Origin: Chloroflexota bacterium
Lineage (GTDB): Bacteria > Chloroflexota > Anaerolineae > J036 > Brachytrichaceae
NCBI GenBank assembly: GCA_025354985.1
Contig: JANXLU010000042.1
Span: 124,001-188,000 of the forward strand
Length of the DNA stretch: 64,000 nucleotides
Direction: 5' to 3'
In this document: positions 26,245 through 37,564 of the stretch, piece by piece
Layout: each line of letters begins with the position of its first letter
How positions within the stretch are numbered: position 1 is the first letter of the stretch
Notes under the pieces: generated by a model
Told to the model about the DNA's origin: nothing
The model's database searches: none
What the model saw: the letters and a program-made list of their open reading frames with translations, nothing else
Made by a program: the position numbers and the translations under genes

Positions 26245-26285
26245 AGACACCGTCGACCGCGCTTCAAGCGCGGTCGACGGTGTCT
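26245..26285. repeat. Perfect 41-base inverted repeat downstream of aldo/keto reductase gene
   Basis: Two exact 20-base arms (the left begins agacaccgtcgaccgcg) flank a single central C at 26265. It lies 28 bases beyond the stop of the leftward aldo/keto reductase gene and about 80 bases upstream of the next leftward transcription start. It could end the reductase message, but there is no T-run on either strand. Confidence 0.85.
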
Positions 26286-26312: not shown

Positions 26313-27284
26313 CTACCAAGCGTAGGCTTCGGGGGCGGCGCCACCCGGGCCTGGGAAAATCTCATCGAGCTTCTTGAGGGACTCGACGCTGAGTTTGATG
26401 TCGACCGCGCGCATGCTGCCTGTAAGTTGATCGAGGGTGCGGGGCCCGATGATAGGTGCACTGACCACGGGATTGTGGAGCAACCAAGCCAGCGCTACGT
26501 CTGCGGGATCCTCACCCAGCTGGGCGCAGAATGCCTCATAGGCCTCAATCTTGGGCCGGTTCTTTTCAATTGCAGACTGCATGCCTTCGGCGGCGCGACG
26601 TCCGGCCGCTTGCTTCTTCAGCACGCCGCCCAACAGGCCACCACCCAGCGGGCTCCATGGGATAAGTCCCAACCCAAGATGCTGACAGGCCGGGATTACC
26701 TCGAGCTCAACCATGCGCGCATTCAAGTGATAAAGGCTCTGCTCGCAGACCAACCCCATGGAATGACGTGCTGCCGCCACGCCATTCGCGTGGGCGATAT
26801 GCCAGCCTGCAAAGTTGCTGCTGCCGACGTAGATCACCTTGCCTTCGCGCACGAGCTGATCCATCGCCTGCCAGATTTCCTCCCAAGGCGTGTTGCGATC
26901 AACATGATGCATCTGATACAGATCAATGTGATCGGTTTGCAGACGCTTGAGACTGGCTTCGCACGCACGGCGGATATGCAACGCGGAAAGTTTGGAACCA
27001 TTTGGCCACTCGGCCATCTTGCCAAAGACCTTGGTTGCAATAACCGTTTTCTCACGGCGTCCGCCACCCAGGGCAAACCAGCGACCGATTATTTGTTCGG
27101 TGACGCCTTCACCAAACACCCGGCCGTAACCGTTGGCGGTATCGAAAAAGTTCAGACCCAGCTCATGCGCCTTATCCATGATCGCGTGGCCATCGGGTTC
27201 GGTGGTGAATGGGCCAAAGTTCATAGTGCCAAGACAGAGCGGACTAACAAGGAGGCCGGTGCGGCCTAATTTTCGGTATTCCAT
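26313..27284 (-). CDS. Aldo/keto reductase
   Basis: NADPH-dependent aldo/keto reductase of 323 residues, of the YajO/Kv-beta-like branch. It starts with the family pattern MEYRKLGRTGLLVSPLCLGT. Asp48 and Tyr53 (FFDTANGYG), a Lys in VIATKVFG and a His in YQMHHVD make up the tetrad. A TACAAT box ends six bases before the ATG, so the message is probably leaderless. It is followed by a strong inverted repeat (26245-26285). The substrate is not evident. Confidence 0.93.
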   Translation of the reverse strand: MEYRKLGRTGLLVSPLCLGTMNFGPFTTEPDGHAIMDKAHELGLNFFDTANGYGRVFGEGVTEQIIGRWFALGGGRREKTVIATKVFGKMAEWPNGSKLSALHIRRACEASLKRLQTDHIDLYQMHHVDRNTPWEEIWQAMDQLVREGKVIYVGSSNFAGWHIAHANGVAAARHSMGLVCEQSLYHLNARMVELEVIPACQHLGLGLIPWSPLGGGLLGGVLKKQAAGRRAAEGMQSAIEKNRPKIEAYEAFCAQLGEDPADVALAWLLHNPVVSAPIIGPRTLDQLTGSMRAVDIKLSVESLKKLDEIFPGPGGAAPEAYAW

Positions 27285-36166: not shown

Positions 36167-37564
36167 TTAAGCGTCCGTTTGACCGCGATAGCTTTCATCC
36201 AGCAGTTCAACGACGTACTTTACCTGCACATGTTTGCCGGCTTTGCGGAGTTCATTGGCCAGCTGCATGGCACAACCGGGGTTGCCGGTCGCAATGACGC
36301 TTGCACCTGTGGCAAGTGCGTTGGACACTTTTCTGGAGCCGAGTTGGCCGGCCATCTCAGGTTCGGTTAGGTTGTAAATTCCGGCGCTGCCACAGCACAT
36401 GGCGCTTTCCTGCATCTCAATAAGCTTCAACAGAGGTATCGATTTCAGGAGTTTGCGCGGCTGGGTCGTAATGCGCTGGGCATGCGCCATGTGGCAGGGT
36501 TCCTGATAGGTCACCACCAGTGGCAACGGCTTTAGATCGGCGGTGTTGAGCACAATGGCGGCAAGAAACTCATGAATATCGCGCACCTTGGCCACAAACT
36601 TCTCGGCGCGCGCATGCCACGCGGGATCGTCGCGCAGCATATGAGCATATTCCTTAAGCGTACTGCCGCAACCAGCCGCGTTGATGATGATCGCTTCAAA
36701 ATTATCCAGACCGGCTGCTTCCATCGCGGCAATGTTTTTCCGGGCAAGCTCGCGGCCACCGTCCATATCGCCGCCGTGCGTGTGCAACGCCCCACAGCAA
36801 CCCTGACCCCCAGGCAAAACCACGTCACAGCCATTTTTTTGCAATACTCGAATGGTGGCATCGTGAACGTGGGCAAAAACCGTTGACATAATGCAGCCCG
36901 GCATCAAGGCGACGCGTCGCGTCGCCTTGATGCCGGCGGATGCCGCAAACACCTGACCCGTCGGAACCGTAAACTGTTTGCTGATGGCTGGCAACATGGC
37001 CTCGGATTCCGCCATGCCAAAAAGTTTTATCAATCCGGTCTTTCGAGCAAATGTTTGCAAACCGATTTTCTGATAGATCTTCATGCCCCGTGAAAATGCG
37101 CGGAAAAGCCCCATATTCTTAAACAGCGCACCAAAGACAAATCTACGAATGAGACGCTCACCTATTGGTGTTTTAATTGCGGTCCGAACCTGGGTGGTCG
37201 GCGGCAGATTGGTCATCTCGTGTCCGCTATCACGAATACGTTGAATTTGGGCCCGGCTGGCCTCAAGAATGCCGCCATATTGGACGCCGCTGGGACACAC
37301 GGCCTCGCACGCACGGCAGTTTAGACACTGGCTCATTTGATCGACAAACACTCCGTCGTCCAGGCTCACCCGGCCTTCGGAAACACCCTTCATAAGATAG
37401 ATGCGACCGCGGGGCGAGGATAACTCGCTCCCGGTGATGCGATACGTCGGGCACGCAGGCAGGCATAAACCACAGTGAACACACGTATTGATCACGCCGC
37501 TATCCGGCACGTCAGCGCCGGAAAATCCGATAATGGGGATGTCGGTCAACTTAATTTCGCTCAT
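36167..37564 (-). CDS. glcF: Glycolate oxidase iron-sulfur subunit GlcF
   Basis: Iron-sulfur subunit of the glycolate dehydrogenase complex, 465 residues. Two 4Fe-4S ferredoxin motifs near the N-terminus (CVHCGLCLPACP at about 31-42 and CLNCRACEAVCP at about 81-92) are followed by two CCG domains, with MPGCI and QGCCGALH in the first and QEPCHM and ESAMCCGSAGIY in the second. It passes electrons from the flavoprotein subunits to the quinone pool. It is the last gene of the leftward operon, 34 bases after glcE. A perfect 39-bp inverted repeat lies inside the gene at 36898-36936, coding AGIKATRRVALMPG. Confidence 0.93.
   Translation of the reverse strand: MSEIKLTDIPIIGFSGADVPDSGVINTCVHCGLCLPACPTYRITGSELSSPRGRIYLMKGVSEGRVSLDDGVFVDQMSQCLNCRACEAVCPSGVQYGGILEASRAQIQRIRDSGHEMTNLPPTTQVRTAIKTPIGERLIRRFVFGALFKNMGLFRAFSRGMKIYQKIGLQTFARKTGLIKLFGMAESEAMLPAISKQFTVPTGQVFAASAGIKATRRVALMPGCIMSTVFAHVHDATIRVLQKNGCDVVLPGGQGCCGALHTHGGDMDGGRELARKNIAAMEAAGLDNFEAIIINAAGCGSTLKEYAHMLRDDPAWHARAEKFVAKVRDIHEFLAAIVLNTADLKPLPLVVTYQEPCHMAHAQRITTQPRKLLKSIPLLKLIEMQESAMCCGSAGIYNLTEPEMAGQLGSRKVSNALATGASVIATGNPGCAMQLANELRKAGKHVQVKYVVELLDESYRGQTDA
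36898..36936. repeat. Perfect 39-bp inverted repeat inside glcF
   Basis: The 19-base arm ccggcatcaaggcgacgcg, a single T (36917), then its exact reverse complement. It is entirely within coding sequence and in frame. It shares the pattern GGCATCnnGGCG with the intergenic palindrome at 1096-1125. Chance formation of such a long exact palindrome in a gene is very unlikely. Confidence 0.9.

Follow-up and report, generated by a model that had tools for sequence, protein, structure and literature searches.

A perfect 39-bp palindrome within a glcF-like gene of a Chloroflexota bacterium, probably produced by a template switch

Results

The DNA analysed here, called the window, is a stretch of 64,000 nucleotides (positions 124001-188000 of a 283-kb contig) from a Chloroflexota MAG of 4.19 Mb in 98 contigs. 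It contains an intact minus-strand gene for an iron-sulfur subunit (Table 1), whose predicted product matches the Pfam families CCG (2.7e-31) and Fer4_8 (2.2e-13) and has GlcF as its top NCBIfam match (1.2e-83). GlcD- and GlcE-like genes adjoin it in a glcDEF cluster. Because the GlcF match scores 281 bits and the curated cut-off of the equivalog NF008434 is 333, "GlcF-like" is the safe name for the predicted protein.

The initial annotation described a perfect palindrome with 19-base arms and a single central base, lying in frame inside this otherwise normal gene, and the window sequence bears this out: the two arms are 100% complementary. The palindrome encodes residues 210-223, AGIKATRRVALMPG, as had been stated. 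It had also been placed just before a conserved CCG motif, which is correct in that it directly precedes C224, the first conserved Cys of the CCG domain, but the CCG signature itself lies ~32 residues further on.

Table 1 Features of the glcF-like locus, in window coordinates
Feature	Position	Strand	Remarks
glcF-like iron-sulfur subunit gene	36167..37564	-	Intact, 465 aa; Fer4 domain and two CCG cysteine-rich domains
Perfect palindrome	36898..36936		39 bp; 19-nt arms, 1-nt centre at 36917
3' arm of the gene, putative source	36898..36916	-	Encodes RVALMPG; gap-free and conserved in homologue protein alignments
5' arm of the gene, putative product	36918..36936	-	Encodes AGIKATR; non-conserved; carries a net two-codon insertion
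Second GATGCCG copy	36939..36945		Just outside the putatively converted arm; first copy at 36929-36935

Symmetry of this length in a gene was said to call for an explanation, and the null expectations agree. When the synonymous codons in 1.39 Mb of the genome's own coding DNA (crude gene calls) were shuffled five times, no arm of at least 14 nt arose at a spacer of 6 nt or less, and simple arithmetic at 57% GC predicts ~4e-5 palindromes genome-wide with arms of at least 19 nt and a spacer of 0-1. A history of stepwise point mutations or chance might be suggested by coding palindromes with 9-10-nt arms, which at spacers up to 6 are about as frequent as the null predicts, but is extremely improbable given these two figures, and a chance origin of the glcF palindrome is excluded. 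Within the window, palindromes with 8-11-nt arms are likewise about as common as expected under the null, and four outliers stand apart at 15, 15, 19 and 20 nt, with spacers of 0-1.

The three outliers other than glcF are perfect palindromes at 1096-1125, 2562-2592 and 26245-26285. The last is longer than that in glcF (20-nt arms, 1-nt spacer) and intergenic; it lies 28 nt past the 3' end of the minus-strand gene 26313-27284 and resembles a terminator, although it is not followed by a T-run. The palindrome at 1096-1125 (15-nt arms) is located 18 nt past the 3' end of a minus-strand gene, and that at 2562-2592 (15-nt arms; GTTGACAATTAAC) is operator-like and lies in a divergent promoter region. 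A terminator or operator role fits most of the intergenic perfect palindromes near gene ends, but not the one in the middle of glcF, and was rejected for the latter.

A wider count covered 1.74 Mb of the 4.19-Mb genome. Long perfect palindromes in this sample are mostly intergenic: some are terminator-like hairpins by gene ends, and others belong to a REP-like family, AACCCTCACAGGGCT-n3-AGCCCTGTGAGGGTT, which has at least 14 copies in the 1.74 Mb, often clustered (among others L049:10138-10170, L165:7102-7134 and L167:17685-17717). One perfect 56-bp palindrome with 28-nt arms and no spacer (L222:3739-3794) is positioned exactly between two convergent genes and overlaps the ends of both. The initial annotation had proposed a search for further intragenic palindromes, and the 1.39 Mb of coding DNA does contain them: besides glcF, three have arms of at least 14 nt and a spacer of at most 6 (arm/spacer 14/5, 14/0 and 15/3), and a fourth has a longer spacer (21/8). 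The 15/3 palindrome is a copy of the REP-like family at a doubtful gene start, and the 21/8 palindrome consists of a GC-rich repeat within a terminase-like gene. At L209:1131-2969, a gene that by eye resembles a terminase large subunit contains the in-frame repeat CCCTCTCCC...GGGAGAGGG (LTPNPSPGGRG...), apparently a dispersed repeat carried within coding sequence. The glcF palindrome is the longest near-spacerless one among the sampled genes. A GGCATC-type core seemed by eye to be shared among several of the genome's palindromes, but a genome search with the glcF site gave no relative and the idea was dropped.

Coding palindromes of this kind were also sought in other members of the class. The single-contig genome G021, from the same family, has a perfect 33-bp palindrome (16/1) in the gene L232:5727-6344, among 0.32 Mb of coding DNA; we take this gene to resemble one for a REP-associated transposase. 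In two other complete genomes of the class (0.17 and 0.15 Mb), no coding palindrome had an arm above 11 nt. Taken with the shuffled controls, these counts indicate that long coding palindromes are rare, non-random and not confined to this genome.

Comparison with homologues separates the two arms. The gene's 3' arm (VALMPG before C224) corresponds to the first strand of the CCG domain and lines up gap-free with VALLSGC, VALFTGC and similar segments. The 5' arm (AGIKAT) falls in a variable linker that cannot be aligned, where relatives read GERKY or GPRRA instead. Thus the closest homologues have ...AEGERKY--TVALLSGC where this gene has ...ASAGIKATRRVALMPGC. The two extra residues are missing in 21 of 21 aligned homologues, and the distance from an invariant Pro to the Gly of GC is 30 residues here against 26-29 in these 21 (27-28 in the closest of them), so that the 5' arm segment shows a net gain of 6 nt with the frame kept. 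Among 81 homologous genes, no palindrome is comparable and the longest arm measures 13 nt; the check suggested in the initial annotation, that symmetry be conserved in glcF of relatives while codons vary, thus came out negative, and the symmetry is, as judged from these alignments, lineage-specific.

These comparisons bear on whether a dispersed palindromic element, REP-like or resembling the rickettsial palindromic elements, was inserted into glcF. The genome's REP-like family and the in-frame repeat in its terminase gene lend this some plausibility, but multiple similar copies, by which such elements are known, were not found: at E <= 0.001, a search of the genome with the 39-mer returned only the site and the match to its own complement, no copy at comparable similarity was present in 297 other genomes of the class, and the viral contigs searched contained no exact match. 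Because the sequence is single-copy and only 6 nt were gained on balance, where ~39 would be expected, a mobile palindrome is excluded, and insertion of a dispersed element is highly improbable.

An assembly artefact was among the three options of the initial annotation. Such an assembly or consensus error, in which a short inverted duplication was wrongly joined, might be expected in a draft genome. We consider it unlikely, since the site lies deep in its contig, the reading frame is exactly kept, the arms are much shorter than a read, sequence has been replaced and not duplicated, and the similar coding palindrome of G021 occurs in a single-contig assembly.

The initial annotation also offered a selected DNA or RNA structure. 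The hairpin in the mRNA is very stable (-37.2 kcal/mol alone; z -5.4 in a 99-nt context), and the palindrome lies near a domain boundary, as might suit a role in the mRNA (translational pausing, stability or internal attenuation), a DNA cruciform or a protein-binding site. However, in five relatives the homologous stretch of mRNA is no more stably folded than shuffled sequences (z -1.4 to +0.9), with no pairing kept across them as a conserved structured RNA would have, and the genome offers no second copy. Because no homologue retains the symmetry or the hairpin, selected structure is unsupported and appears quite unlikely. A combined scheme, in which template switching made a functional hairpin (for example, one that pauses translation between the ferredoxin and CCG domains) that was gained in glcF and then kept by selection, is very unlikely.

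Discussion

The reading we favour, with a probability of roughly 80%, is a single lineage-specific, frame-preserving template-switch mutation in which an inverted copy of the neighbouring conserved segment took the place of a tolerant linker. The nascent strand, equivalent during this round of replication to the plus strand of the window, would first have copied 36898-36916 and then either folded back on itself at base 36917 or switched to the sister strand. The freshly copied 19 nt would have served as template for their own reverse complement, after which the nascent strand would have gone back to the original template, leaving the older linker codons replaced. An old arm next to a new arm, a small in-frame change in length, exact complementarity and a one-base loop are what such an event would predict. 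Here the two arms are exact reverse complements, the VALxxGC side is conserved and appears ancestral, the AGIKAT side with its two additional residues appears derived, and the 81 homologues lack the symmetry. The product would have survived because it is in frame and occupies a loop that joins the ferredoxin-like part to the first CCG domain; in the predicted structure (model numbering = ORF minus 1), the new residues are in coil ahead of the first strand of the cysteine-rich domain, just before strand 216-221, so that the change would be tolerated. The palindrome as such needs no function.

Additional indications come from two same-genus relatives. The putatively converted arm is closer to their right arm in reverse complement (p 0.01-0.02) than to their own left segment (p ~0.3), which weakly supports a template switch; in two further close relatives, L053 and L006, the arm shows no likeness to their inverted right arm. 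Other observations count against this reading. The closest homologues, only ~65-69% identical, are too distant for a reconstruction of the ancestral sequence or a direct reading of the event. The GATGCCG direct repeat beside the arm is unaccounted for in the simplest scheme, although its second copy is possibly, and post hoc, a trace of the seed or return point. Finally, the initial annotation had specifically suggested conversion of an imperfect palindrome. The switch itself is supported by one conserved and one lineage-specific arm, the added 6 nt and the absence of sharing, but no imperfect inverted repeat is enriched at the homologous site in relatives (median rank 0.42 among 76 genes, the closest 65-69% identical), and any imperfect precursor is hypothetical.

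Mutations of the template-switch type are known from bacteria, yeast and primates. In E. coli, mutation by switching between inverted repeats is well established (PMC7202029), and in yeast coding genes inverted repeats with arms of 7-16 nt are made perfect in this way (PMC8604942). The glcF palindrome resembles these quasipalindrome mutations (PMC8604942, PMC7202029) in being a perfect inverted repeat in coding sequence, one arm of which was apparently overwritten with the reverse complement of its partner, and in its clustered amino-acid changes with the frame kept. It differs in its net gain of 6 nt, in the lack of an imperfect precursor among its relatives and in its 19-nt arms, which exceed the range of the yeast survey (PMC8604942) and also tell against the template-switch reading. 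In RNA genes, template switching creates hairpins according to a four-point model (PMC8794818, PMC7954356), in which one event yields a perfect stem, a tiny loop and an indel relative to the ancestor; the glcF case is similar, except that the gene encodes a protein and nothing points to a structured RNA function. The mitochondrial genes of Nematomorpha also have perfect inverted repeats within functional protein-coding sequence (PMC6649704). Those palindromes are numerous, reach 284 bp and differ from the glcF case because both of their arms encode conserved residues, whereas glcF has one palindrome, of 39 bp, with a non-conserved 5' arm.

The glcF case is a long example of an already known kind of mutation and gives no pointer to a new system. 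Most likely, the event left two extra amino acids in a protein loop, and the palindrome carries no sign of a special function. It provides a clear natural example, from an uncultured bacterial phylum, of a multi-codon change together with an in-frame insertion that apparently arose in one template-switch event; in alignments, such events look like positive selection or independent indels.
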